A stretch of 11,897 nucleotides of DNA from Phycisphaerales bacterium (GTDB lineage: Bacteria; Planctomycetota; Phycisphaerae; Phycisphaerales; SM1A02): assembly GCA_030748455.1 (NCBI GenBank), contig JASMLY010000008.1:1-11897 (forward strand), read 5' to 3'. Positions 1-11,897 of this stretch are shown here, in pieces; positions within the stretch are counted from its first letter, which is position 1, and every line of letters starts with the position of its first letter. Under the pieces are notes generated by a model. That model was not told where the DNA came from. It was given only the letters and a program-made list of their open reading frames with translations, and searched no databases. Made by a program: the position numbers and the translations under genes.

Positions 1-1536
1 GTTAGCCCTAACACATCTCCAAGTGAAGCACCTGCGCAGGAAGATGAATCACATACATACGAAAACGAAGATATAGACTGGCAAGGTCAAGCACCAAAAC
101 TGTTCGATGCAATCTACTACGATCATCTTGCACGGAGCCCACAGCGACAAGCGATGGCAGAAGAACTGAACGAAGGTGAACATACAAAAACATGGTGTGA
201 AGAAAACAATGTTGCTGTTCAAAGCATGATTTACAACGGTGCGGTTGATTGGTATGAAGACGGTGCATACGATGATGTCGACCGGGCCAAGTTTACTGAA
301 TGGCTTGATGCAAACGTACCTCTTGATTACGACGGACCTCTCTGCCTTGATATGGAAGGCGAATGGTGGAACATGTGGCACACAGAATCGCAAGTTGTGA
401 TGGATATCGTGATCGATTTTTATCTTGAAGGACTCGAGTTTGCGAAGTCAAAACGACCAAATGCCAAAATCGGATACTGGGGTTTACCAAGAAGGCGACA
501 CACGAGTCCAAATTACACAACAGCATCCGTTGACCGGTTGCTAAAAGCATGTACTGGTTTGTTCCCAGATGTGTATGAATGGAATCCAGGGCAAGACGAT
601 TCCGCTTGGATCAAACGTCACGTCACCAATACAATGGCACTCGTTGAAGGTCAAGTTCCAGTGTTTGTTCAAACATGCCCACGATTCAAAGAAACTGGCA
701 GAGGTATGAAACTTCACGCAGTAGAAGAATTCATCCATGACCAAGTGCAAGCATCGCTCGCAGCAGTATGGACAGATGAAGAAGGTAACGAACACAGAAT
801 CGCAGGCATATCGATGTGGGATGCATACTTATATTGCTGGCAAGGTACGTATAACTGGAGCTCATTAGGTGACGAAGATCGTAAAGCGTTGTTCAACGAA
901 CTTGATGAGTATCACAAGAACGCATTGGCTTGCATGAAATCATGCATAGATGCACTAACCAACGCTTCGCAACAAGAAGCAGCTTCTTCAGCGGAAGCAA
1001 TCGCACAAGCAGCGGAAGAAGAAGCAGCTCGCGTTGCTGCTGCTCGCGCCGAAGCATCCCGACTTCGTGCAGAACGTAAACGACAACGAAGCCGACTTGT
1101 TCGTCGCCTAAACAGCGAACGAACAAAGATACGCCGTGCGACTGCGAAATGGCGAACAACAGCGAGAGGATTCCGTTCTGCTCGATCTTCATACAAAAAC
1201 AAACGACGGTCGTATATAAACTCTCGAACAACATACCGTACCGCTCTTAAAGCTTGGCGAACCAAAGGCCGCAAGCAAGCACGTGGATCAAAAGCACGCA
1301 GTACAGCTTGGCGAACGTTCGCAAAGGCGCGAAAACAGTTTGTAAAATCACAAAGATCTTGGCGAAGCAACGTGAGAACATGGCGTGCTTCAGTAAAGAA
1401 TTTCCGAAGCCAACGCAATTCATACCGTGCTTCACGTACAAAGTGGCGAAGTACCGTCAAAACTTGGCGCACAGCAAATGCACGGTGGCGCCAAATGGCA
1501 CGAACAGCTTCAACGCTTGCAGCAGTTGGTAAATAA
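1..1536 (+). CDS. Hyaluronidase-like TIM-barrel protein with basic aromatic-heptad tail (5' partial)
   Basis: The reading frame is open from base 1 to the TAA at 1534-1536, so the true start lies outside the window; an ATG at 154 has no special claim to be the start. About 511 codons are visible. Codons 40-290 look like a TIM-barrel glycosidase: LDMEGEWW (codons 116-123, with acidic residues D117, E119, E121) and the following KIGYWGLP recall the catalytic DxE and the WGFYGFP-type strand of GH56 hyaluronidases. This is pattern resemblance only. Codons about 315-350 are an Ala/Glu/Arg-rich helix, followed by a strongly basic region (codons about 363-503) with W, F or Y every seventh residue and Arg usually next to it. 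The tail may bind a polyanion such as an acidic polysaccharide or nucleic acid; this is inference. A strong terminator follows. It could instead be another GH family; substrate is unknown. Confidence 0.8.
   Translation, partial: VSPNTSPSEAPAQEDESHTYENEDIDWQGQAPKLFDAIYYDHLARSPQRQAMAEELNEGEHTKTWCEENNVAVQSMIYNGAVDWYEDGAYDDVDRAKFTEWLDANVPLDYDGPLCLDMEGEWWNMWHTESQVVMDIVIDFYLEGLEFAKSKRPNAKIGYWGLPRRRHTSPNYTTASVDRLLKACTGLFPDVYEWNPGQDDSAWIKRHVTNTMALVEGQVPVFVQTCPRFKETGRGMKLHAVEEFIHDQVQASLAAVWTDEEGNEHRIAGISMWDAYLYCWQGTYNWSSLGDEDRKALFNELDEYHKNALACMKSCIDALTNASQQEAASSAEAIAQAAEEEAARVAAARAEASRLRAERKRQRSRLVRRLNSERTKIRRATAKWRTTARGFRSARSSYKNKRRSYINSRTTYRTALKAWRTKGRKQARGSKARSTAWRTFAKARKQFVKSQRSWRSNVRTWRASVKNFRSQRNSYRASRTKWRSTVKTWRTANARWRQMARTASTLAAVGK
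1087..1509 (+). repeat. 21-nt period coding repeat: basic aromatic heptads
   Basis: Within the tail of the first gene, hydrophobic or aromatic codons fall exactly 21 nt apart: L1108, I1129, W1150, F1171, Y1192, Y1213, Y1234, W1255, then Q1276 and R1297, then F1318, F1339, W1360, W1381, F1402, Y1423, W1444, W1465 and W1486. The phase is kept through the two non-aromatic positions. The usual heptad is aromatic-R-S/T-x-x-R/K-S/T. At DNA level the hexamer TGGCGA recurs. Acidic residues are almost absent from W1150 on. A continuous helix would place the aromatics along one stripe. Confidence 0.85.
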
Positions 1537-1571
1537 AACGAGGTTTCTGGGGTTTCGGGAAGCAGGGTGTT

Positions 1572-1604
1572 GCAGGATCGATCATTGATCGATCCTGCTT
1601 TTTT
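1572..1604 (+). terminator. Rho-independent terminator of the first gene
   Basis: Bases 1572-1584 and 1586-1598 are perfect 13-bp inverted repeats around a single base, in practice giving a stem of about 10-11 bp with a short loop, followed directly by six T (1599-1604). It lies 36 nt after the TAA at 1534-1536. The T tract overlaps the stop codon of the convergent gene (1603-1605 read on the minus strand). On the minus strand the hairpin is not followed by a T tract, so it is a classic terminator for the plus strand only. Confidence 0.9.
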
Positions 1605-2448
1605 ACGTGAGAGTTTTGAGCCGTTCGATTGCGGTTGCTTCATGTATCGCTGGTGAGCATTCAACTCCGATTGGTCCCTCATAGCCGAGTTTTTCTAATT
1701 CTTGGAATACTCGTTTGTACTGGATTTCACCAGTGGTTGGTTCGTGCCGACCGGGATGATCAGCTACTTGCACATAGCCTAGTTGGTCAATCCCTTCGCG
1801 TAGATGCCCACAAAGATCACCCTCACTAATTTGCATGTGGTACAAGTCCCAATTGATTTTTACCATTGGTGAACCAACTTCTCTGCAAATGCGTACAGCA
1901 TCTTCACTTCCATATAAACAATGCCCAGGATGATCAACTCGAATGTTCATTGGTTCGATGATGAGCATGATTTGTTCACGTTCTGCAATTGAAGAAGCAA
2001 GTTTGAGCCCTGTGATTATGTGCTCGTGCATCTCCTTTTGTGTCATCCCCTTTTGATCATTTCCACACACGACAGTCATGCGTTGACAACCAAGTGTATG
2101 AGCAACTTTACAACTTGCTTCAATTTCTTTTACAAAAGCTGCATGATTTTTCGGATTGTTCATGCCAGGAGTGAATCCCCAAGCAGTGAATTGTGCAACT
2201 TCAACACCGCGTTCTTTGCAAACTTTTGCAACTGCGTCAATATCCTTGCCTCTCCAAGGCCAAAATTCAATAGCGTCAAAACCAGCATCAGCCGCGGCGT
2301 GGATACGGTCTACAAATGGAAGTTTTCTCCACCACATTTCAATGTTTGCAGCGTATTGAACAGGAAATGAAGAGTCTGCTTTGGCAAGTTTTGACGTTGT
2401 TGCAGCGAGCGCGGTTGCGACTAAAAAGGATCTACGAGAGAGTGGCAC
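1603..2448 (-). CDS. Tat-exported hydroxypyruvate isomerase-like TIM-barrel protein
   Basis: 281 residues. The N-terminus SRRSFLVA followed by a hydrophobic stretch and AKA is a twin-arginine signal, so the protein probably acts outside the cytoplasm. The rest fits the xylose-isomerase-like TIM barrel (AP endonuclease 2 fold), Hyi family: E165 (IIEPMN), D201 (INWDLYH), Q227 (YVQVADHPGRHEP) and E263 (GVECSP) have the spacing of the metal and active-site residues of E. coli Hyi-type proteins. Hyi converts hydroxypyruvate to tartronate semialdehyde, but exported planctomycete members may act on another sugar; substrate is not decided here. The start is GTG at 2448: an in-frame TAG lies four codons upstream and no in-frame ATG fits, and the Tat signal begins here. 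There is no clear Shine-Dalgarno; the stop of the upstream gene is only 18 nt away, so translation may be coupled. Mature length (about 255) matches the family. Confidence 0.85.
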   Translation of the reverse strand: MPLSRRSFLVATALAATTSKLAKADSSFPVQYAANIEMWWRKLPFVDRIHAAADAGFDAIEFWPWRGKDIDAVAKVCKERGVEVAQFTAWGFTPGMNNPKNHAAFVKEIEASCKVAHTLGCQRMTVVCGNDQKGMTQKEMHEHIITGLKLASSIAEREQIMLIIEPMNIRVDHPGHCLYGSEDAVRICREVGSPMVKINWDLYHMQISEGDLCGHLREGIDQLGYVQVADHPGRHEPTTGEIQYKRVFQELEKLGYEGPIGVECSPAIHEATAIERLKTLT

Positions 2449-2466
2449 AGGGTCATACTACTCTGA

Positions 2467-3522
2467 TTATGCAGATATTGTGAGACCAACTGTTGCGACT
2501 CTTTCTTCTTCATCAGGTGGTCGATGCATCCATGAACGCAGGCCGTTTCTTTTCAATGCAATCCACCAAACCCAAAAAGCAGTTGTTACATATGGTAGAA
2601 CTTCGATAACAGCCTGAGGTATTGTGTTTGACAAATCAACAAGCATGCCGTTTCCTTCGAATTGGCTAAACCCCAGAAGCCATGGGATTCGGTACCAGTA
2701 GTAACAAGAGATTGCAGCAGCAGCAAAATATCTATCGATCGTTTTTCTTTTTTGAAGTGGGATCGAACTGATCAGCAGTGCGTAGAGTGCGAGTGTAACG
2801 GCACCACCGATGATCGGAATGGCAAAAGTATTTGTGATGTTCGCCATTCCTTCAGAGAGTGTTGCATAATCCTGAACTTGGAACCATCCCCAAACGTACC
2901 CAGGGAAACATCCAATAAGCCCGAATGCTGCCGCTCGTCTTGGCCAAGTCTTTCCACCAAGATGAGGGCTTGGCGAAGCGGTCGAGTCTGGGCAACCTGT
3001 TACACATTTGCTGCAATAATCACAGTGTGCATTTCCAACGACTGCAGCGGGCTTTTGCCCATACAATTTTTCAACTTGGTGCACAGGGCAGAGGCTCGCA
3101 CACCAACCGCTTTTTCCATCAAAGAAAAACGTGAAACCAATCGCAACAAGGGTCGAAATGATAAGGAACGTTCCGGTTGCAGGTCCATTGAGATCAAAGT
3201 ATGTATGGCGAAGAGGAATGATGAGGAGTAACAATATGACACTGACAAGGATGAACCAGCCTTGTGTTTCAACCGACATTTTCTTTCGCTTTGTCATCCC
3301 TCGATGTCTGGCAAATTGAGACATTGTTGCTGCGGGGCAAATATTTCTCCACACACCTGGGAATAATGCAACAAGAGCGGGAGCGACTGGGATCAGGACA
3401 TCCCAAAAGGCGTGAAGGCCAACAGTAGGCCAAAAAAATAACATGCCGACCATTACCAAGCAAAGGAACCAAACAATACATTGAACCCCCCCCCAGATAC
3501 GCAATTCGAGAGGACTTAGCAT
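2467..3522 (-). CDS. NapH/NosR-like membrane-bound 4Fe-4S protein
   Basis: 351 residues with about seven hydrophobic segments (roughly 11-31, 40-57, 88-104, 116-134, 197-213, 232-254, 301-322). A 4Fe-4S motif C167-x2-C170-x2-C173-x3-C177-P lies between membrane segments, and two further cysteine motifs, NICP (C62) and CASLCP (C141, C145), are typical of the NapH/NosR/RdxA-type polyferredoxins. Only one complete four-Cys cluster motif is visible, where NapH usually has two. The family passes electrons from the quinol pool or cytoplasm to periplasmic oxidoreductases; the partner is not in the window. The start ATG at 3522 has GGAG at 3534-3531, 8 nt upstream. It is the first gene of a two-gene unit with the isomerase-like gene 18 nt downstream. 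Codons 10-13 contain a run of nine G (see findings). Exact function is not assigned; it could serve nitrogen oxide metabolism or another redox process. Confidence 0.82.
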   Translation of the reverse strand: MLSPLELRIWGGVQCIVWFLCLVMVGMLFFWPTVGLHAFWDVLIPVAPALVALFPGVWRNICPAATMSQFARHRGMTKRKKMSVETQGWFILVSVILLLLIIPLRHTYFDLNGPATGTFLIISTLVAIGFTFFFDGKSGWCASLCPVHQVEKLYGQKPAAVVGNAHCDYCSKCVTGCPDSTASPSPHLGGKTWPRRAAAFGLIGCFPGYVWGWFQVQDYATLSEGMANITNTFAIPIIGGAVTLALYALLISSIPLQKRKTIDRYFAAAAISCYYWYRIPWLLGFSQFEGNGMLVDLSNTIPQAVIEVLPYVTTAFWVWWIALKRNGLRSWMHRPPDEEERVATVGLTISA

Positions 3523-3884
3523 AAACAGGACTCCGAGGTCATCATTATCTAGTCGGACGCATCAATACCCCAACTATTGCAAAAACATCCATTTCCACCA
3601 ACAAATCCCACTCCCCGTCTGAGCATACCTCAGACCATACCTCTGTGCATACCTCTGTGTATACCTCTGAGCATACCTCTGTGTATACCTCTGTGCATAC
3701 CTCTGTGTATACCTCTGAGCATACCTCTGTGTATACCTCTGAGCATACCTCTGTGTATACCTCTGAGCATACCTCTGTGCATACCTCAGAGCATACCTCA
3801 GACGTGGTGTCAGGCGAGGGTTGATAAAAAACACACCAGAAAGTGGGGTAATTGGCGTTTACGTCGAATTTGAGATTGATTGGT
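3523..3884. other. Non-coding gap with tandem array and weak promoter-like sequence
   Basis: 362 nt lie between the dockerin-tailed gene and the ferredoxin-like gene, both on the minus strand. The middle half is the 12-bp tandem array described separately. Close to the ferredoxin-like start, the minus strand reads TTGGGG (3573-3568), an 18-nt spacer, then GATAAT (3549-3544), a weak sigma-70-like promoter. No convincing terminator was found after the dockerin-tailed gene. Open frames across the array are a consequence of its 12-nt period and are not called as genes. Confidence 0.6.
3619..3804. repeat. 12-bp tandem repeat array (minisatellite), 15 copies
   Basis: The hexamer ATACCT occurs at exact 12-nt steps from 3625 to 3793 (15 copies), each followed by a variable hexamer: CTGTGT, CTGTGC or CTGAGC in the core, and CAGACC, CAGAGC or CAGACG in end units. 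A half unit CTGAGC precedes at 3619. Because 12 is a multiple of three, at least four of the six frames remain open through the array (minus strand as QRYT/QRYA or EVCS/EVYT, plus strand as IPLC/IPLS or TSVY/TSEH). It is not a CRISPR array: there are no unique spacers. Confidence 0.95.
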
Positions 3885-4556
3885 TTAGCAGGGACCCCAA
3901 GCAGCAACGATCTCAAGGAGATCCGTTACGTCAACGATACCGTCCCCGTTGACATCGCCTTCACCTGCATTGCCCCAGTTTCCGATCGTAGCAAGAACAT
4001 CCTCGACATCGATAATGCTGTCACCGTTAACATCTTGGGGGCAAGGATTGGAAAGGGGAGTTACATCCATGTAGCCATCCATATAAATGCGATCGATTTC
4101 CACGTTCTGCCAACCAAGTGGCCAGCCCATATCGACCATGACGTCTCCAAGAAAAACATTTGTTACATCAAATTGTCCAAAACCGTTCCCGTCAATCTGC
4201 ATAAAGATATCAGCAGCAACGTCTATTTCACCATCAGAATCCGCGTCTGCTTCAAGCGGCTCGTCCATCATGACTATGGGTGTGGGGCCATCGACAATAC
4301 CAAACCCAAACAATAACTCTGGATCGATTTGGTCGGTGACATCTTCGGGTCCAATTATTTGTCCAAGAAAAACAACATCAACTCCAACATAAGTAATTTC
4401 ATATTGATACTCGAATTGATCAGCATTTGGATCTACCGATGTAGGGCTCACCCAATGTACGTCGTTGCCGTTTGTGTTTTCGCTGAACTCCCAGTGTACG
4501 GTATCTGCGAAACATGGAAATGCAATTGATAATGACAATAATGATGCTAATTTCAT
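3885..4556 (-). CDS. Secreted protein with C-terminal dockerin-like double Ca-binding loop
   Basis: 223 residues from ATG 4556, chosen because AAGGAGAG lies 4 nt upstream and a signal peptide starts here (MKLASLLSLS..., probable cleavage after A17); a longer frame from a GTG at 4619 has no such support. Residues 18-168 are an acidic, probably beta-rich domain I do not recognise, with EADADSDGEID and IDGNGFGQFD segments that may bind calcium. Residues 172-223 form a dockerin type I-like tail: DVNGDSIIDVEDVL (175-188) and DVNGDGIVDVTDLL (201-214), each followed by a W-G pair, ending WGPC. C172 just before the first loop and C223 at the end are the only cysteines of the mature protein and could form a disulfide. 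No cohesin is visible, so docking is not implied; such tails are common in Phycisphaerae. It is divergent from the SGNH-like gene. Confidence 0.82.
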   Translation of the reverse strand: MKLASLLSLSIAFPCFADTVHWEFSENTNGNDVHWVSPTSVDPNADQFEYQYEITYVGVDVVFLGQIIGPEDVTDQIDPELLFGFGIVDGPTPIVMMDEPLEADADSDGEIDVAADIFMQIDGNGFGQFDVTNVFLGDVMVDMGWPLGWQNVEIDRIYMDGYMDVTPLSNPCPQDVNGDSIIDVEDVLATIGNWGNAGEGDVNGDGIVDVTDLLEIVAAWGPC

Positions 4557-4562
4557 TTTTCT

Positions 4563-4567
4563 CTCCT
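4563..4567 (-). promoter_or_regulatory. Ribosome binding site deciding the start at 4556
   Basis: On the minus strand AAGGAGAG precedes ATG 4556 with the AGGAG core 6 nt away, a near-consensus Shine-Dalgarno. It argues for the 223-residue form and against the longer open frame that begins with GTG at 4619. Confidence 0.8.
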
Positions 4568-4581
4568 TAGGGTTACCGTCT

Positions 4582-4609
4582 ATTATTGCTCTACGAGCGA
4601 ATAATGCAA
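4582..4609 (-). promoter_or_regulatory. Possible sigma-70-type promoter of the dockerin-tailed gene
   Basis: On the minus strand TTGCAT (4609-4604), a 16-nt spacer and AATAAT (4587-4582) lie about 25 nt before ATG 4556. The -10 matches 5 of 6 consensus bases, the -35 only about half. The 87-nt gap to the divergent SGNH-like gene must hold promoters for both genes; the other side is AT-rich (TATAAA directly before ATG 4644) without a clear pair. Confidence 0.3.
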
Positions 4610-4643
4610 TTGGATTCACTAATATTCTGTATCATTTTATAAA

Positions 4644-5480
4644 ATGCTTTCAAAACCCATAAAATCCTTTGTTTTTTCTCTTTTTATTGCACTTTCTGTA
4701 TTTGCAGATTCACAGCCCTGTGACATCCTTAATCGCGTTGTTGTGACTGGTGCGAGCGTTTCTTCTGGCTTTGGGGTGACCACGCCTCCAATCAAAGGCG
4801 ATTTTGGAGCCTATCCAATTAATATGAAACACATTATGGAGGGTGTTATTTCATCAGAACACGAAGAGGTGAAGTTCTTTGGTGACCTTTTGTTTTTTAA
4901 GAGATCAAAAGCAAACGCAAAAGCGTACATAAAAAAAATCAAAGAATATAAGCCCACTCTCATTGTGGGTGTTGACTTCTTGTTTTGGTTTGGACACGGA
5001 ACGCCGCCAGATGGCACAGATGTTTCGACATACAGAATGGAGAAATTAAACTTCGCTCTTGATTTACTCGGAGAGTTAAAAGTTCCAATTATTATTGGTG
5101 ATTTACCAAATGTTCGATCAGCAATTGGAAAAATGTTATCAGCGAATCAAGTTCCCTCAAAGGAACTGCTTCTCTTATTGAATAAGCGCATTCATGAGTG
5201 GGGTGAAGCGCACCCCAACGTAACAGTTGTTGATGTGTTCGACTTGAGCAACAAATTGATGAATGATGAAGCGATTACATTTTTGGGTCACACTTGGCCC
5301 GCGGGCAGCCAGTCAAAACTATTACAACAAGACATGCTTCATACAACGTTTGAAGGAACCGTTGCTGCGAGTATGATGGTTGCAGAAGAAATCAATGTTG
5401 GGTGCATAGAAACAGACCCAAAACTCATTATGAAAAACGCTTCCGCCACCGCACGCAAAGAAGCAAACCGGAAGGAATGA
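4644..5480 (+). CDS. Secreted SGNH/GDSL-like hydrolase
   Basis: 278 residues. A signal peptide spans about 1-21 (KPIKSFVFSLFIALSVFA). The mature part has an SGNH-hydrolase layout: VVVTGASVSSGFG (S38 as nucleophile in a GAS block I instead of GDS), GVDFLFW (109-115) where block III normally has GxND, IIIGDLPNVR (149-158), and D230-M-L-H233 followed by TFEG, the C-terminal DxxH of block V. The block III Asn appears to be missing or replaced by Asp, so enzymatic class (esterase, lipase, acetyl-glycan esterase) cannot be set. The start ATG 4644 is the only Met before the signal peptide; no clear Shine-Dalgarno precedes it. The last 20 residues are basic and likely disordered. It stands alone, divergent from the dockerin-tailed gene, and converges with rmuC at a distance of 2 bp. 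Confidence 0.75.
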   Translation: MLSKPIKSFVFSLFIALSVFADSQPCDILNRVVVTGASVSSGFGVTTPPIKGDFGAYPINMKHIMEGVISSEHEEVKFFGDLLFFKRSKANAKAYIKKIKEYKPTLIVGVDFLFWFGHGTPPDGTDVSTYRMEKLNFALDLLGELKVPIIIGDLPNVRSAIGKMLSANQVPSKELLLLLNKRIHEWGEAHPNVTVVDVFDLSNKLMNDEAITFLGHTWPAGSQSKLLQQDMLHTTFEGTVAASMMVAEEINVGCIETDPKLIMKNASATARKEANRKE

Positions 5481-5482
5481 TG

Positions 5483-6616
5483 TCACTCAATCGCGCGTGG
5501 CTCGATATCGATTGGTTCTGTTGGAGGTAATTCTTTTCCACCAGTTGAATGTAGTTCGCTTAATCGTTTTGCGCCTGGTTCAAGGCGGGTTGTAAAAGAA
5601 CCAACAGCTTTATTGTACGACTCTGTCGCCTGATGAAGTCGGTTCCCAACTTTGGCAAGGTGTTCTTGAAATATTGACAAACGATCATACAGTTCTTGTC
5701 CTGCTTTGGCAATTTCTTCAGCATTCTTCGCCATAGAATCCTGTCGCCACCCAAACGCAGCCGCTTGCAACAACGCGATGAGCGTCGTTGGTGAAGTTAA
5801 CAATACTTTTTTGGAAAGTGCTTTGTTATGCAAATCGGGATTTCGTTCAAGCGCGGCAACAAGGGCTGATTCTACATTTACAAACATTACAACAAATGCA
5901 GGAGAGTAATCAAACTGTTCCCAGTACGCCTTACTTGCAAGTGAATTTATATGTGTTTCAAGTGCTTTAACATGGTTGTCTAAATGTTCGGCGCGTTCCG
6001 CTTCTGGGTGTTCTAGTGCACTAAGGTAATGGTCCAGTGGTAATTTGGAATCAACAACAAGTCGACCGCCGCCCGGCATTTTTATCACCATATCAGGTCG
6101 ATACGACCGATCTCCGGAAGTCGAAACTTGTTCTTCAAAATCACATTTGTCTGTCATGCCAGCAAACTCAACGACATTACGCAATCCAACTTCTCCCCAT
6201 TTGCCGCGATGGTCAGGTCTTCGAAGAGCATTCTCAAGTTTTGATGTTTCTTCGATTATGTCCTTTGTCGCAGACTCAAGGTTGGTGTACGCTTTCTCTC
6301 GCTTAAGTTCTAAGTCCCTGACATGGGTTTTTGTTTCTTCAAGTAATTTTTCAAACGGCGCGAATTGTAGTTTCGCAGTTTGTAAAAACGACTCAGAGTT
6401 TTTCTTAATAGCTTCTTGACTGATGGCTGCAAAGGTTTCGCGTAACTGCTCCTCCATCTTTGTGAGGTATTTTTCCTTTTCATCAAGCTGCGTTTTAAGG
6501 CGAATGTTATCTATATTCACATCTCCATCCGTTTTTCGCCCAAAAAATGCAAAAACAGCGATTCCACCCAAAAAACATCCAATAAAAATTCCGAAAGCCA
6601 GACTTATGTAATCCAT
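5483..6616 (-). CDS. rmuC: DNA recombination protein RmuC
   Basis: 377 residues. An N-terminal membrane anchor (about 4-25) is followed by a coiled coil (about 38-130) and the conserved RmuC domain: RGKWGEVGLRNVVEFAGM (137-154), RPDMVIKMPGGGRLVVDSK (173-191) and FVVMFVNVESALVAAL (241-256). The E142, D175 and D189-x-K191 pattern fits the PD-(D/E)XK nuclease-like core proposed for the family. RmuC limits inversions at short inverted repeats and is linked to DNA recombination and defence against foreign DNA in E. coli. Length is somewhat shorter than the E. coli protein (about 475) but complete. ATG 6616 starts directly before the anchor, with an AGGA about 11 nt upstream. It appears to be a single-gene unit, divergent from the CTERM-tailed gene and convergent with the SGNH-like gene. 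Confidence 0.95.
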   Translation of the reverse strand: MDYISLAFGIFIGCFLGGIAVFAFFGRKTDGDVNIDNIRLKTQLDEKEKYLTKMEEQLRETFAAISQEAIKKNSESFLQTAKLQFAPFEKLLEETKTHVRDLELKREKAYTNLESATKDIIEETSKLENALRRPDHRGKWGEVGLRNVVEFAGMTDKCDFEEQVSTSGDRSYRPDMVIKMPGGGRLVVDSKLPLDHYLSALEHPEAERAEHLDNHVKALETHINSLASKAYWEQFDYSPAFVVMFVNVESALVAALERNPDLHNKALSKKVLLTSPTTLIALLQAAAFGWRQDSMAKNAEEIAKAGQELYDRLSIFQEHLAKVGNRLHQATESYNKAVGSFTTRLEPGAKRLSELHSTGGKELPPTEPIDIEPRAIE

Positions 6617-6673
6617 AGTGTTGGCATCCTACGTATTTTTTACTAGTTTTTCTCGGAAAACGATAGATTACCT

Positions 6674-6702
6674 TTGAAAAACCATTTTTTACGTGTTACA
6701 TT
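6674..6702 (+). promoter_or_regulatory. Possible sigma-70-type promoter of the CTERM-tailed gene
   Basis: TTGAAA (6674-6679, 5 of 6 to the -35 consensus), a 17-nt spacer and TACATT (6697-6702, 4 of 6 to the -10) lie about 43 nt before the GTG start at 6746. The 129-nt gap between the divergent rmuC and CTERM-tailed genes is otherwise AT-rich. This would drive the plus-strand cluster; it is a by-eye match only. Confidence 0.35.
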
Positions 6703-6745
6703 GCATGTACGGCTTTTATAGAGAGAAGCCAGATTAGGAGAGAAT

Positions 6746-7408
6746 GTGAAGAAGTTACCACTAATTGTGCTATCGTCGCTCGTAACACCTGTTGCAATGG
6801 GCGATATTTACATGGACCCAGTTGGCGACATTGCAACTGGAAACGCAAACCTTGATATTACACAGGTTGAAGTGACTGACAACGGAACCGATTTGATTGT
6901 TCGATTAACTGTTGACAATCTCGATGGGGATTGGGGCAAGTATCTTTTCTTTGGTGACTATTGGTCTGGTGGTTCAGGCGATAATGACAATCCTTGGTTC
7001 CGCGATATATCTGGTCTGAGTGGAACAGATCTCTTTGTTGGCACTTGGCTTGATGGTGGCGGCGGTGCAGATGCTCAGGAAAACACAGCCGGATCGTGGG
7101 GGCCATCAGCGTTTGCTGTTTCTGCTTGGGCTGACTGGGAAAACAACACTGTTCAGTGGAATTTTTACAACTTTGTTTCAGATCTTACGGCCATTGGCAT
7201 TACAGGTTTCGATTTTGAAGTTGCAACAACTGGTGGCAATGGGGGTGATCCAGCGATTGACCTACTTGGTGGTGAAGGAACGCAACCAGGCTGGGGTGGT
7301 GGTTCAACTTCAACAGATTGGCAGCACTATGAATTTTCAACAGTTCCAGCTCCAAGCGCACTCGCACTTTTAGCAATGGCTGGTCTTGCACGACGCCGAC
7401 GGTCGTGA
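6746..7408 (+). CDS. Beta-rich surface protein with PEP-CTERM-like sorting tail
   Basis: 220 residues. The start is GTG 6746 with AGGAG at 6736-6740 (5-nt spacer); an overlapping ATG at 6744 runs straight into TGA. A signal peptide covers about 1-19 (MKKLPLIVLSSLVTPVAMG). Residues 20-198 form a beta-rich, aromatic and glycine-rich domain that may be a DOMON/CBM9-like sandwich. The C-terminus VPAPSALALLAMAGLARRRR is a PEP-CTERM-type tail (Pro motif, hydrophobic segment, Arg cluster), which in other bacteria is processed by an exosortase; none is visible here. Both halves of the domain recur in the GH13 protein two genes downstream, in opposite order: residues 25-103 match its residues 150-225, and 132-199 match its 72-139. 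By that link the protein may bind glucans at the cell surface (inference). It is followed 76 nt later by the next gene, with a hairpin between. Confidence 0.85.
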   Translation: MKKLPLIVLSSLVTPVAMGDIYMDPVGDIATGNANLDITQVEVTDNGTDLIVRLTVDNLDGDWGKYLFFGDYWSGGSGDNDNPWFRDISGLSGTDLFVGTWLDGGGGADAQENTAGSWGPSAFAVSAWADWENNTVQWNFYNFVSDLTAIGITGFDFEVATTGGNGGDPAIDLLGGEGTQPGWGGGSTSTDWQHYEFSTVPAPSALALLAMAGLARRRRS

Positions 7409-7433
7409 TCAATCAAAATGAAAAGACTTGTAT

Positions 7434-7462
7434 CAACACCCATCGTTGTTCGGAGGGTGTTG
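7434..7462 (+). other. Intergenic hairpin between CTERM-tailed and dockerin-tailed genes
   Basis: CAACACCC (7434-7441) and GGGTGTTG (7455-7462) are perfect 8-bp inverted repeats with a 13-nt loop, placed 26 nt after the stop of the CTERM-tailed gene and 22 nt before the next ATG. The downstream sequence TGTATTTA is only weakly T-rich, so it may be a leaky terminator or a processing or stability element inside one transcript. Another short inverted repeat (CACGAC 7389-7394, GTCGTG 7402-7407) covers the end of the upstream gene. Confidence 0.5.
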
Positions 7463-7471
7463 TGTATTTAG

Positions 7472-7476
7472 AAGGA
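7472..7476 (+). promoter_or_regulatory. Ribosome binding site deciding the start at 7485
   Basis: AAGGA lies 8 nt before ATG 7485, directly followed by a signal peptide. It favours this start over the in-frame TTG at 7428, which would put a Cys/Arg-rich extension in front of the signal and run through the hairpin. Confidence 0.75.
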
Positions 7477-7484
7477 AGAAAGAG

Positions 7485-8561
7485 ATGAAATACATACTTA
7501 CAACTACAGTACTCTCAGCGACATCAATTTGTTTCGCCCAACCTGTTGTCGATGGCACGGTGGACGCAGCGTATGGTGCACCAAATGCTGTGCAAAACAC
7601 GCAAACTGGCTTTGGAAACTCCGACTTAGGGATGCCAGACTTTGCTAACGGATCTGAAATTGACGCTGGTTACGCAGTGATTGACAGTGGCTACTTGTAC
7701 ATCATGCTTTCAGGTAACTTGGAAAGCACATTTAACAAAATAGACATTTTTATTGATGCACGGAGTGGTGGCCAAAACACGCTGCGATCGGATAACCCCG
7801 ATGTTGACTTTAATGGTTTAAACAGAATGGGAGATGACGGAACAGGGAATGGTCTTACATTTGATACTGGTTTCGAAGCGGATATGTGGGTTGGTTTGAC
7901 ATGCGGCGGAGAAACGTTTGCGACTTACGCAAACTACGCAGAACTACACACCGAAGGCGCGGGCTTTGGTATGTACATCGGCGAAGGTGCTTCTGGCGGT
8001 GATGGCGCGATCTACGGGAAAACGGGATTCATTCTTGCACTCGATAATTCCAACACCGGCGGTGTTGGGTATGGTGAAGGGCTTGGTTGTGGCGAAGGTG
8101 TTACAACTGGAATCGAAATCGCTGTTCCTCTCTACCTTCTAGATTGGGATGGTGGAGCTGGTGATATTACTTCTGCAAAAGTTTGTGCGTTCATCAACAA
8201 CGGCGGTCATGACCACATGTCCAACCAAGTTATCGGTGGACTCGGTGGTAGCCCAAACCTTGGCGACCCTCGAAACGTGAATTTTGATTTGATTGCAGGT
8301 AATCAATATTTTGCAATTGGTGATAGCGCAGGTCCTTGCCCAGACCTTACTGGTGCTTGCTGTTTCGATACGGACTGTAGCGATTTAACAGAAACCGATT
8401 GTTCCTCCCTCGGTGGGGTGTACAACGGCGATGGGTCATTTTGTAATACAGAACCATCACCATGTGCCCCAGAACCATGCCAAGGCGATACAGATGGTGA
8501 TGGTGATGTCGACGTAGAAGATCTCCTTACGGTGATCGCAAATTGGGGTTGTGGACCATAA
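7485..8561 (+). CDS. Secreted protein with Cys-rich module and single dockerin-like loop
   Basis: 358 residues from ATG 7485. A signal peptide spans 1-18 (cleavage before QPVVDGTVDAAYG). Residues 19-285 are a beta-rich domain I do not recognise by name, with strands around GSEIDAGYAVIDSGYLYIML and FNKIDIFIDARSGGQN and a DNPDVDFNG segment; the layout recalls CBM9/DOMON-like sandwiches of planctomycete surface proteins. Residues 285-332 are Cys-rich (GACCFDTDC, TETDCSSLGG, GSFC, SPC, EPC), a small disulfide-stabilised module seen in other planctomycete secreted proteins as I recall. The tail GDTDGDGDVDVEDLLTVI (334-351) followed by NWGCGP is one dockerin-like Ca-binding loop, half of the usual pair. 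C332 before the loop and C356 at the end flank it. It sits 76 nt after the CTERM-tailed gene and ends at a strong terminator, so it may be the last gene of a two-gene unit. Function is unknown. Confidence 0.83.
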   Translation: MKYILTTTVLSATSICFAQPVVDGTVDAAYGAPNAVQNTQTGFGNSDLGMPDFANGSEIDAGYAVIDSGYLYIMLSGNLESTFNKIDIFIDARSGGQNTLRSDNPDVDFNGLNRMGDDGTGNGLTFDTGFEADMWVGLTCGGETFATYANYAELHTEGAGFGMYIGEGASGGDGAIYGKTGFILALDNSNTGGVGYGEGLGCGEGVTTGIEIAVPLYLLDWDGGAGDITSAKVCAFINNGGHDHMSNQVIGGLGGSPNLGDPRNVNFDLIAGNQYFAIGDSAGPCPDLTGACCFDTDCSDLTETDCSSLGGVYNGDGSFCNTEPSPCAPEPCQGDTDGDGDVDVEDLLTVIANWGCGP

Positions 8562-8585
8562 CTCTTGTTTAATCGATGATTCTTG

Positions 8586-8621
8586 GGCAGCTCGTCCTAA
8601 GGCGAGCTGCCTGTTTCCTTT
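8586..8621 (+). terminator. Rho-independent terminator after the Cys-rich dockerin-tailed gene
   Basis: GGCAGCTCG (8586-8594) and CGAGCTGCC (8603-8611) form a perfect 9-bp GC-rich stem with an 8-nt loop, followed by TGTTTCCTTT. It lies 24 nt after the stop codon and 24 nt before the GH13 start, so the GH13 gene needs its own promoter or read-through; no good promoter match was seen between them. Confidence 0.75.
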
Positions 8622-8645
8622 GTAAAAGACAATGATTGCAGTACT

Positions 8646-11222
8646 ATGGTCGTAATGAAACTCATCAGGAATAGATGGATGTTTGGAATCTCGATGTTTC
8701 TGACAATTGCTGTTTCGTATGCTGAGGATCGCGTTGATCCGTCCGCACATGCTGGTATGGGTGCAGTTCCCTATGGTGGTGCAGGTTGCCAAGTTTGGTT
8801 ACAAGGTGAAACTGCGTGGGCAAACTCTGGAACCATCAGACCCGACCTTACAAATGCATCGTCTGGTACAGTCAAATGGGGTGTTCCGTTGACGTCAATT
8901 GGAATTGCAAGCGGTGACACAGTTCGTTTTGATATTGCAACAAGTGGTAGTGGCACGAGTGATCCGGGAGTTGACCATCTGAGCCGGTCAGATCAAGCGA
9001 CAGATGGTTGGGCAACTCCTTCAGTTTCAGGAACTTTTTTGGAATATGTACTCGATGGGACATCAGGAAGTCTTGCAATTCCCGACAGTCTTGGCGATGT
9101 GTTTGATTTTGCCAATTTAGATATAGATTGGGTCGTTGTTTCGCACGATTCTCAAAATTTGTATTTCACAGTAAACGTAGATGACAACCTGACTGAAACG
9201 GATTGGACAAACTTTATGTTTTTCCTTGACACAAAAGAAGGTGGAACTTCAGATAATCCATGGGGAAGGCCGATTGACCTCGGTAGCGAAGAGATTGATG
9301 TTTTTCTTGGCAGTTGGGTAAACAATGCAGAGGCTGGTGTTAGTTTTAGAACGTGGGCACCAAATGCAAGCGCTGTTGCAGTCGTCGGAGACTTTAACAA
9401 TTGGTCAATGTGGTCAACGATGCTCGCAACAGAAGGTGACGGAAAATGGTCGGTGGACGTGTCGTACGCTGACATCGCCGACGAATATCAATATGTGATA
9501 ATAAATAATGGCGTGCAATATTGGCGAAATGACGCACACGCGAAACAACTTACGAACTCAATCGGCAACAGCGTGGTGTACGATCCAGACGCCTATTTGT
9601 GGAATACAACAGACTTTTCTCGTCCTGCTTGGAACGAGATGGTTGTGTATGAAATGCATGTTGGCACATTTGCGGGTGGTTTTTTACAAGCAGCAAGCAA
9701 ACTTGATTATCTCGTAGAACTCGGTGTGAACGCCATTGAACTGATGCCAGTTTGGGAGTTTGCAGGTGACCTTTCTTGGGGATACAACGCAGCGCATCCG
9801 TTTGCAGTTGAATCAAGTTATGGTTCGCCAAACGAATTGAAACGATTTATTGACGAAGCGCACGAGCGTGGCATCGCGGTGTTGCTTGATGTTGTTTACA
9901 ACCACTGGGGTCCATCCGATATGGATCTTTGGCAGTACGACGGTTGGAGTGAAAACAATTTGGGCGGGATTTACTTTTATAACGACGATCGTGCTTGGAC
10001 TCCTTGGGGAGATACAAGACCAAATTACAGTGTCGGTGAAGTGCGGACATTTATCCGAGATAGTGTGCTCTATTGGCTCGAAGAATATCGACTTGATGGA
10101 TTGCGAATTGATGGAACAAAATGGATACGCGCAACCGATGATGGTGGAACAGAAATACCAGAAGGTTGGACTCTGCTTCAGTGGATCAACGATGAAGTTG
10201 ATGCGCACGACAGTGGGAAAGCGATCATTTGTGAAGATCTCGCTGGAACTGATTGGATGACAAAATCAACAGGCGAGGGTGGGGCTGGTTTTGACTCACA
10301 ATGGGATGTCTATTGGATTCATCCGGTGCGTGGTCTTATTGAAACGGCCAACGATAGTGATCGCTCGATGTGGACAGTTCGTGATGCAGTCATGGCGGTC
10401 TACAACGGTGACCAAACCGATCGAGTGATTTATACAGAGTCACATGATGAAGTTGCTAACGGCCGCTCTCGTGTACCCGAAGAAATTGCTCCGGGCGACG
10501 CAGGCAATTGGTTTGCACGAAAACGCTCAACGCTTGGTGCAGCGATGGTGTTAACATCTGCTGGCATTCCAATGCTCTTCCAAGGGCAGGAGTTCCTCGA
10601 AGATGGGTATTTTGATGACGACGACCCCCTTGATTGGTCTAAAACGACGACCTATTCAGGGATTTTACAGTTGTACACAGATCTCATCGCCTTGCGGTTG
10701 AATACATATGGTAATTCAGGCGGGCTTTCTGGAGGGTCAACAAATGTTCATCATATTAATGACACGGCGAAGGTTGCTGCGTATCATCGATGGGGGGATG
10801 GTGGCATCGGTGACGATGTCGTTGTAGCTATGAACTTTACTGTTGATCCAAGAGAATCGTACCGAATTGGTTTCCCTCAAGAAGGTGAGTGGTATCTTAT
10901 ATTTAATTCAGATGACACTGCCTACGCAGATGATTACGGAAACGTGGGGCATGACGTAACTGCGACCAATTTCGGGTATGACGGGCTCCCTTACAGCGGG
11001 TTGCTCGATCTTGCTCCGTATTCGGTGCAAATTTTCTCACAAGTTCCAAATCCTGCTGAATCGTGCCCCGAAGATATTTCTGGTGATGGCGTCGTTTCAG
11101 TTGATGACTTGCTTACAATGATCAGCGGTTGGGGTACACCCGATTGGGATATCAATGGTGATGGCACCACTGATGTTTCTGACCTACTTGCTGTCATTGG
11201 AGCCTTTGGACCATGTCCTTAA
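8646..11222 (+). CDS. Secreted branching-enzyme-like GH13 protein with CBM48 and dockerin-like tail
   Basis: 858 residues from ATG 8646; ATG 8655 (MKLIRNRW) gives an equally good signal peptide, and no Shine-Dalgarno decides. Order: signal (to about A26); two half-modules shared with the CTERM-tailed protein (72-139 and 150-225); CBM48 (VSFRTWAPNASAVAVVGDFNNW, 232-253); GH13 barrel (330-690); beta C-domain (700-797); dockerin-like tail (807-858). GH13 regions are intact: I, D415VVYNH420; II, GLRID489 (nucleophile) with R487; III, ICE530 (acid/base); IV, SH600-D601EV. SHDEV and MNFTVDPRESYRIGFP followed by FNSDD resemble GlgB-type 1,4-alpha-glucan branching enzymes, while DVVYNHWGP is more like maltooligosyl-trehalose trehalohydrolases. 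It probably acts on extracellular alpha-glucan by hydrolysis or transfer; the exact reaction is open. C807 and C857 flank the two Ca-binding loops. The 3' end overlaps the next gene by 10 nt. Confidence 0.92.
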   Translation: MVVMKLIRNRWMFGISMFLTIAVSYAEDRVDPSAHAGMGAVPYGGAGCQVWLQGETAWANSGTIRPDLTNASSGTVKWGVPLTSIGIASGDTVRFDIATSGSGTSDPGVDHLSRSDQATDGWATPSVSGTFLEYVLDGTSGSLAIPDSLGDVFDFANLDIDWVVVSHDSQNLYFTVNVDDNLTETDWTNFMFFLDTKEGGTSDNPWGRPIDLGSEEIDVFLGSWVNNAEAGVSFRTWAPNASAVAVVGDFNNWSMWSTMLATEGDGKWSVDVSYADIADEYQYVIINNGVQYWRNDAHAKQLTNSIGNSVVYDPDAYLWNTTDFSRPAWNEMVVYEMHVGTFAGGFLQAASKLDYLVELGVNAIELMPVWEFAGDLSWGYNAAHPFAVESSYGSPNELKRFIDEAHERGIAVLLDVVYNHWGPSDMDLWQYDGWSENNLGGIYFYNDDRAWTPWGDTRPNYSVGEVRTFIRDSVLYWLEEYRLDGLRIDGTKWIRATDDGGTEIPEGWTLLQWINDEVDAHDSGKAIICEDLAGTDWMTKSTGEGGAGFDSQWDVYWIHPVRGLIETANDSDRSMWTVRDAVMAVYNGDQTDRVIYTESHDEVANGRSRVPEEIAPGDAGNWFARKRSTLGAAMVLTSAGIPMLFQGQEFLEDGYFDDDDPLDWSKTTTYSGILQLYTDLIALRLNTYGNSGGLSGGSTNVHHINDTAKVAAYHRWGDGGIGDDVVVAMNFTVDPRESYRIGFPQEGEWYLIFNSDDTAYADDYGNVGHDVTATNFGYDGLPYSGLLDLAPYSVQIFSQVPNPAESCPEDISGDGVVSVDDLLTMISGWGTPDWDINGDGTTDVSDLLAVIGAFGPCP

Positions 11223-11897
11223 CTACATACTCGAAAAAAGGTTTTACTCTTGTTGAACTTTTGGTTGTAATCGCAATCATGGGGATTTTGATGTCATTGG
11301 TAGTCGTAGGAATAGGTCTAATGCTAGTTAGAGCAAAAGCAACTAAAGATTTAACTAATCACAAAACTATCGGGGCGGCTAACTGGAGTTATTCTGTAGC
11401 GAATAATGGTCGATTACTTCATCCAAGAACTAAAATAGATGAGAACGACTCAACGGATGAACAGATCGAACGATTTTGGATAAAAAGTTTTGATGATGTA
11501 GGTGCAACTCGGCTGGAATATACAGATGGTCCCGAACTTGCACTTGCGCTTGAAGATGGCGCAGCATTTCCATTTATAGAAAACATAGATTCATATAGAT
11601 CACCCTTAGATCCCACAAAGCGAATGCGAAGTTACTCACTCAATTCATTTGTTGGAGTTGAATTTGGAATTGATGATACTCAGGTTTTCAATATTCCCGG
11701 ATTGAGCGAATTTTTTATGCCTGCCATGACCGCATCTCAGGTACCACAACCATCAAACACTATGAACAGCATTTCGGAAGACGATCGTCGAACAGGTGGT
11801 CCAAATTGGAACGGATGGTTGTTACACCCAAAAAACGACATGCCTTTCTTGGTGTGGTATGACATCCCAGCGTTTTGGGTACCAAATGAAGTAGGCA
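11213..11897 (+). CDS. Pseudopilin-like protein with prepilin N-terminal motif (3' partial)
   Basis: The frame from ATG 11213 stays open to the end of the window (228 codons visible). The N-terminus MSLTTYSKKG-FTLVELLVVIAIMGILM is a type IV prepilin/pseudopilin leader: basic part, cleavage expected after G10, F11 as new N-terminus, E15 at +5, then a long hydrophobic helix. The later part (RSPLDPTKRMRSYSLNSFVG, many Asn/Trp/Pro) resembles the planctomycete family of prepilin-like proteins with a C-terminal H-X9-DG region, which would lie past the edge. Its start overlaps the last codons of the GH13 gene (ATGTCCTTAA, 10 nt) and GGAG at 11199-11202 lies 10 nt upstream inside that gene, so translation is probably coupled. 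It could be secretion-system pseudopilin or an independent surface protein; the large family size in planctomycetes argues for the second. Confidence 0.88.
   Translation, partial: MSLTTYSKKGFTLVELLVVIAIMGILMSLVVVGIGLMLVRAKATKDLTNHKTIGAANWSYSVANNGRLLHPRTKIDENDSTDEQIERFWIKSFDDVGATRLEYTDGPELALALEDGAAFPFIENIDSYRSPLDPTKRMRSYSLNSFVGVEFGIDDTQVFNIPGLSEFFMPAMTASQVPQPSNTMNSISEDDRRTGGPNWNGWLLHPKNDMPFLVWYDIPAFWVPNEVG

Follow-up and report, generated by a model that had tools for sequence, protein, structure and literature searches.

A predicted aromatic-core helical hairpin ends a GH56-like protein encoded by a mosaic gene in Planctomycetota

Introduction

What is a strongly basic tail with an aromatic residue in nearly every seventh position for, when it ends a hyaluronidase-like protein? 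The question is raised by contig JASMLY010000008.1 of a Phycisphaerales bacterium (assembly GCA_030748455.1), of which the stretch from position 1 to 11,897, here called the window (11,897 nt), was analyzed. The open frame concerned (1..1536, + strand, 511 aa) carries the aromatic heptad tail at its 3′ end and has lost its 5′ end to the contig edge, which falls within the gene. An earlier reading made from the letters alone (the sequence-only reading) had proposed an exposed aromatic stripe that may keep the enzyme on a polyanionic substrate. Our analysis points to a helical hairpin with buried aromatics, and on balance we favor the view that this hairpin and an N-terminal dockerin are the constant anchoring ends of an exchangeable GH56-type hydrolase. 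The GH56 family is named for animals and venoms and, according to excerpts of PMC11669647, PMC7793863 and PMC12254123, bacterial hyaluronan degraders belong to other families, while an excerpt of PMC5352709 attributes the failure of one strain on chondroitin sulfate partly to absent GH56 genes. No prior report of the finding was found in the open-licence literature, and the gene mosaicism, as read from the alignments below, appears to be new here.

Results

The aromatic heptad is kept at the protein level

The heptad row LIWFYYYWQRFFWWFYWWW comprises 19 positions, 17 of them hydrophobic and 15 aromatic. A single heptad phase holds 15 of the 16 aromatics of aa 345-511, a number that none of 20,000 shuffles of this segment reached, and 13 aromatic pairs lie 7 residues apart where 1.5 would be expected (11, 10, 9 and 8 pairs at lags 14, 21, 28 and 35). 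The position after a, b, is Arg in 12 of the 19 heptads. The 142 residues from aa 370 to the end have a net charge of +44 (the window's barrel has -22) and, counted by eye, only one acidic residue, Glu373. The sequence-only reading had seen the phase with its 17 hydrophobic positions, the Arg that mostly follows and the near-absence of acidic residues correctly. The pattern is kept at the protein level, since no 21-nt tandem repeat was found in the tail DNA.

A homolog search over 5.8 billion proteins, with 7992 candidates scored, yielded 56 proteins including the window's own. Most of the complete ones are 539-618 aa long and have a signal-like start (by eye), a pair of dockerin-like calcium (Ca) loops, the barrel and the tail. 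The heptad is present in 47 of the 56; eight are tailless and the tail of P0037 is disrupted. The heptad and charge statistics exclude these nine (P0037, P0040, P0041, P0048-P0052 and P0054). According to labels assigned by hand from the homolog tails (long, short, third or none), the heptad positions number 19 in long tails, at most 15 in short ones and 13 in P0009. Six short-form tails are shorter than the long form by exactly 28 aa, or four heptads, and a seventh by 29 (locus alignment). A third arrangement with a longer middle is found in P0023, P0025 and P0026. The 2-residue gap of nine long-form tails sits in the predicted turn. Judged from the run coordinates, the heptad phase shifts between the first and the second arm in 14 of the 47 tailed relatives, by -2 in nine (P0007, P0008, P0012, P0016-P0021), by -1 in P0027 and P0032 and by +3 in P0023, P0025 and P0026. 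In 40 of the 47, the tail has a net charge of +15 or more per 100 aa, next to barrels of -14 to -32. The tails of P0022 and P0025 keep the aromatic heptad despite many acidic residues and are natural test cases for the role of charge.

The tail is predicted to be an antiparallel hairpin

In the AlphaFold 2 (AF2) model the tail forms two helices and a turn (Table 1), with a predicted local distance difference test score (pLDDT) mostly about 90; modeled alone, it scored 89.6, with 95-98 in the central blocks of the arms and 64 in the turn. The off-pattern positions Q426 and R433 fall in or beside the predicted turn, and therefore the row consists of two heptad runs, one per helix, and not of one long helix. 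The models keep the helical tail of the sequence-only reading, though as a two-helix hairpin rather than a single helix with an exposed stripe, and the tail is very likely an antiparallel alpha-helical hairpin at the C-terminus.

Position a is aromatic in 78% of cells of the 47 homologs and aromatic or aliphatic in 96%, the latter partly by the way the runs were constructed. The aromatics are most likely buried in the helix-helix core, and not displayed as a binding stripe, because position d is small (Ala/Gly/Ser) in 63% of cells and because a, e and d are the least variable positions (e with an entropy of 0.39, a lowest among the 21 long tails). Hydrophobic a, small d and antiparallel helices with a tight turn in the AF2 model are the features of an Alacoil. 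The likeness to Alacoil or alanine-zipper coiled coils (ROP, Lac repressor; excerpt of PMC3037368) thus extends to two antiparallel helices, here predicted, with hydrophobic a and Ala/Ser d, but the tail differs in its aromatic a over up to 19 heptads, its strongly basic surface and its single-chain hairpin.

Word-based searches with the long-form tail gave 21 matches including the window, and with the short form 10, among them the new P0057, whose barrel is present by sequence. All belong to the barrel-tail family, so the possibility that the tail recurs with other catalytic domains found no example. A tail profile run over 400 genomes of the order matched 42 at E ≤ 0.1, of which 12 are the family genomes G001-G012; the best match among the other 30 was 2.9e-9, G243 and G379 matched in both orientations, and stops interrupt several of the matches, as expected from low complexity. 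At E ≤ 1e-6, a run over 382 genomes from the phylum matched G003 and no other, and the nine pattern stretches in viral contigs included no relative.

A divergent GH56-like barrel behind a dockerin

We are highly confident that the catalytic part is a divergent relative of the GH56 hyaluronidases, and the earlier label of a hyaluronidase-like protein held up on the evidence of the AF2 fold, Foldseek, a PH-20 profile match and a paralog. The AF2 barrel has the GH56 (beta/alpha) fold, and Foldseek and VIA match it to GH56 hyaluronidases. At the sequence level profiles of the family run against the PDB found PH-20 as the only GH56 match, weakly (E 0.35 and 0.054); the window barrel alone found no GH56 chain at E ≤ 10, PF01630 was not among the seven Pfam families for the window protein at E ≤ 10, and NCBIfam gave sub-threshold matches only. 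The paralog in L047 exceeds the PF01630 cut-off (25.1 vs 23.2 bits). The presumed catalytic D and E are kept in 54/54 and 55/55 rows with a letter there; Asp117-Met-Glu119 aligns with D-Y-E of L046, itself aligned with the D-x-E of bee hyaluronidase and HYAL1, and Tyr192 is Y in 54 of 56 rows. Compared with the known enzymes (HYAL1, PH-20, bee and wasp venom; PF01630), the window protein is bacterial, shows 12-17% identity in structural alignments, adds the helical hairpin and, in relatives, a dockerin, and has a putative hydrolase activity.

The barrel profile matched three of 392 genomes of the phylum, namely G003 itself and, weakly, G021, where the match led to PF01630 proteins, and G047, whose match has no Pfam family. 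Of 400 genomes from the order, 58 have a PF01630 match that exceeds the Pfam cut-off (see loci L046, L073-L076), against none of 14 control genomes. In some, such as G021, G036 and G083, two or three GH56 matches lie side by side. A 560-aa planctomycete protein (L045:1276-2958, − strand) has a DVEHW motif, a GYWG stretch and a barrel profile match of 3.2e-5 and matches no Pfam family.

Where the N-terminus of a relative is complete, 93-162 residues precede the barrel and, if the protein is tailed, include dockerin-like loops. The signal-like stretch and dockerin (about 80 aa) of the complete window protein lie beyond the contig start. A Ca-loop motif, written after the sequences had been inspected, is present in 42 of 42 tailed rows with at least 93 residues before the barrel and absent in seven of the eight tailless rows (P0041 keeps it). 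The tailless rows are close kin in the barrel tree, so that one or two joint losses of tail and dockerin are indicated, not eight. Dockerin type I (PF00404) matches 44 of the 56 family members at E ≤ 10 (best 2.8e-9; the contig start leaves the dockerin out of the window), and each of the 12 relatives' genomes has 21-36 dockerin matches. Cohesin PF00963 was found in none of these 12 at E ≤ 0.01, although they are draft metagenome-assembled genomes (MAGs) and a diverged cohesin could escape. Type I dockerins on enzymes recall cellulosomes and the proposed 'planctosome' (excerpt of PMC6461901); the difference is that no Pfam cohesin was found in the 12 genomes. In this same group without a Pfam cohesin match, the window also encodes, at 8646-11222, an 858-aa amylase of the branching-enzyme/TreZ-like type that carries CBM48 and, below threshold, a dockerin stretch at its C-terminus.

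The barrel appears to be exchanged between constant ends

In a barrel tree of 55 of the 56 rows (one was lost to the length filter) long tails occur in four places, requiring four changes, all forced by well-supported branches, and short tails require ten. P0002 and P0013 are 85% identical in the dockerin part, 49% in the barrel and 99% in the tail. Over 945 non-independent pairs, using pairs with at least 40 shared columns, identities correlate at 0.64 between dockerin and tail, 0.25 between barrel and tail and 0.41 between dockerin and barrel.

In L001 the dockerin part resembles L010 (77% of 35 aa), barrel aa 27-250 resemble L009 (84%), barrel aa 251-318 resemble L004 (85%) and the tail resembles the window (71%). 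Its gene seems to combine ends of its own type with barrel segments from two further lineages. Maximum-chi-square breaks fall at window aa 28, 265 and 339 (0/2000 permutations each; 761/2000 and 180/2000 in control triplets), with triplets picked after the piecewise identities had been seen and with permutations that treat sites as independent. They correspond to the dockerin/barrel border, a point inside the barrel and the barrel/hairpin border, the last lying in the Ala/Glu-rich linker.

Five of seven flanking genes (isomerase, RmuC, dockerin protein, amylase and pilin-like protein) are 76-86% identical between L001 and the window. The other two are only 50-52% identical, so exchange is not limited to the tailed gene, and it seems, as judged by sequence comparison, to adjoin it at window 2467-5480. 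Relatives of a NapH-like gene in this region occur in L008 and L009 and those of the protein at 3885-4619 in L007-L009, but neither of the two is full-length in L001, which is closer otherwise, and the protein at 4644-5480 is 84% identical to L009 and 50% to L001.

Contig ends fall inside the tailed gene in six of 13 loci (window 1, starts of L001 and L012, ends of L005, L010 and L011), and two G010 contigs (L010, L022) share exactly 55 bases where barrel and tail meet. This overlap looks like a branch in the assembly graph, a reading based on the k-mer habit of assemblers. We consider it probable that the barrel is exchanged between relatives while the ends stay constant.

Discussion

How could hairpin and dockerin anchor an enzyme? 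In the mechanism that we propose, the aromatic a of one helix would pack in each layer against the Ala/Ser d′ of its partner, so that the hairpin would form a rigid rod about 11 nm long whose outside is rich in Arg/Lys. The GH56-type hydrolase would be secreted, as the signal-like stretch and dockerin at the start of complete relatives suggest, and both ends would hold it at the cell surface or in an acidic, probably sulfated exopolymer, the hairpin by its charge. There the barrel would cleave an N-acetylhexosamine polymer via the GH56 mechanism, and recombination would swap it between constant ends, so that specificity changes and the address stays. Since the termini of (beta/alpha) barrels are usually both found on the side away from the active site, dockerin and hairpin could keep that site pointing outward. 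The exopolymer is suggested by locus L066, in which a tailless, dockerin-less GH56 paralog (8079-9227) sits among two sulfotransferases, two glycosyltransferases and a flippase (Pfam, L066 only), an arrangement that looks exopolymer-type.

Several points weigh against anchoring by exchangeable ends. All twelve loci come from MAGs, and chimeric assembly is the main caveat on the mosaic genes, although the occurrence of the same long tail type on four barrel groups, from many separate contigs, argues against it. No Pfam cohesin was found as a partner for the dockerin in the 12 relatives' genomes, the hairpin fold is not distinctive, and the basic charge is weak or lost in seven of the 47 tails. 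Charge anchoring by the hairpin is held only tentatively. More doubtful still is the fullest version, a glycosaminoglycan-type hydrolase whose barrel is a recombining cassette between the dockerin and a new class of aromatic-core cationic hairpin, fixed in the cell's own sulfated matrix.

Two other roles for the hairpin are unlikely but deserve attention. It could be an oligomerization domain, two hairpins dimerizing as a four-helix bundle that displays several barrels together; alanine zippers and Alacoils allow very tight, usually tetrameric packing (excerpt of PMC3037368) and the conserved e offers a possible second interface, yet the high positive charge on b, f and e would repel hairpins at low salt, and AF2 yields a confident lone hairpin. 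With a comparably low chance it could be a mere rigid stalk that keeps the barrel off the surface, its charge mattering little. A heptad core that survives weak or lost charge (P0022, P0025) and length differences of whole heptads between long and short forms would fit a stalk, but strongly basic tails beside acidic barrels in 40 of 47 cases look selected.

The aromatic and Arg stripe that the sequence-only reading had envisaged, exposed on a single helix and binding acidic polysaccharide or nucleic acid directly, has become improbable. The side chains suit such ligands and the substrate class may be polyanionic, but a hairpin with small residues at d is predicted, the arms shift phase in 14 of 47 tails, and the aromatics are kept in weakly basic or acidic tails; of that interpretation the helical tail and the hyaluronidase-like barrel remain. 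Very improbable is a hairpin that, like that of colicins E2/E3/E9, attaches to another cell's receptor or membrane and makes the protein an aggressive or adhesive factor. Colicin E proteins were the first Foldseek matches of the tail alone (2ysu_B: TMt 0.88, root-mean-square deviation 1.8 Å over 128 columns) and share the long two-helix hairpin, but at ~10% identity, E 0.017-0.1 and in another protein context; similar scores are reached by many unrelated hairpins, no domain for killing or translocation was seen in the protein, and the barrel is hydrolase-like. We know of no aromatic heptad in the colicin E receptor-binding hairpin. An origin of the tail in mere drift of codons or composition, or in a DNA repeat, can practically be dismissed: the low complexity of the tail (Arg, Lys, Ser, Ala, Thr) would allow it, but the shuffles, the lack of a DNA tandem array and the low variability of a in long tails speak otherwise.

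If anchoring by constant ends is true, small-genome marine planctomycetes would possess a modular system that alters cutting specificity and keeps the address. A GH56-type fold is widespread in one planctomycete order, and in one clade it is joined by a hairpin domain without a name, whose aromatic row spans up to 19 heptads. The aromatic core would lend itself to tests of big-small packing in antiparallel coiled coils, and the mosaicism of the gene opens the exchange of enzyme specificity in uncultured bacteria to direct testing.

Features of the window and its surroundings

The features of the tailed frame are collected in Table 1. An antisense frame across the tail (912..1682, − strand) was rejected by eye as a codon-bias artefact.

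Table 1 Features assigned to the tailed open frame of the window
Feature	Position (nt)	Strand	Basis
Linker ahead of barrel	1..78	+	frame open at base 1; full N-termini of relatives
GH56-like (beta/alpha) barrel, aa 27-318	79..954	+	AF2, Foldseek and VIA, profile, paralog
Presumed catalytic Asp117-Met-Glu119 (GH56 D-x-E)	349..357	+	conservation and alignment
Tyr192 in FPDVY motif, aligned with PH-20 YPSIY stretch	574..576	+	alignment
Trp273, invariant	817..819	+	56/56 rows
Ala/Glu-rich helical linker, aa 319-361	955..1083	+	AF2; pLDDT 53-74 in aa 331-360
Predicted hairpin helix 1, aa 334-423, heptad a-positions 370-419	1000..1269	+	AF2, whole protein and tail alone
Predicted hairpin turn, aa 424-430	1270..1290	+	DSSP on model
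Predicted hairpin helix 2, aa 431-509, heptad a-positions 440-496	1291..1527	+	AF2; confidence drops past aa 500 in whole-protein model
Aromatic heptad row LIWFYYYWQRFFWWFYWWW, aa 370-496	1108..1488	+	phase count, homologs

Among 62 candidate stretches, the twelve loci in species genomes are all from Planctomycetota, nine of them labelled Phycisphaerales or Phycisphaerae. The position of the gene is kept: PqiA-, MlaD-, DHQ-synthase- and TatD-type genes flank it on one side, and a barrel protein resembling xylose isomerase is encoded on the opposite one. Its surroundings do not suggest a functional operon. In G011 the tailed gene is split over two contigs. A further GH56-type gene (frame of 362-413 aa) is present in ten of the 12 genomes, with two in G005 and none in G002 and G010, and none of seven such genes inspected has a tail or dockerin. 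Their loci in seven genomes (L066-L072, G003-G009) are largely alike: one sulfotransferase cluster and a flippase cluster occur in six of seven (the contig of L071 ends first) and a second sulfotransferase in three. By eye, the paralog of L066 lies near genes resembling ribosomal protein genes. Between genes, window 3618-3799 holds about fifteen copies of the 12-base unit TCTGTGCATACC, also readable as a 24-base unit.
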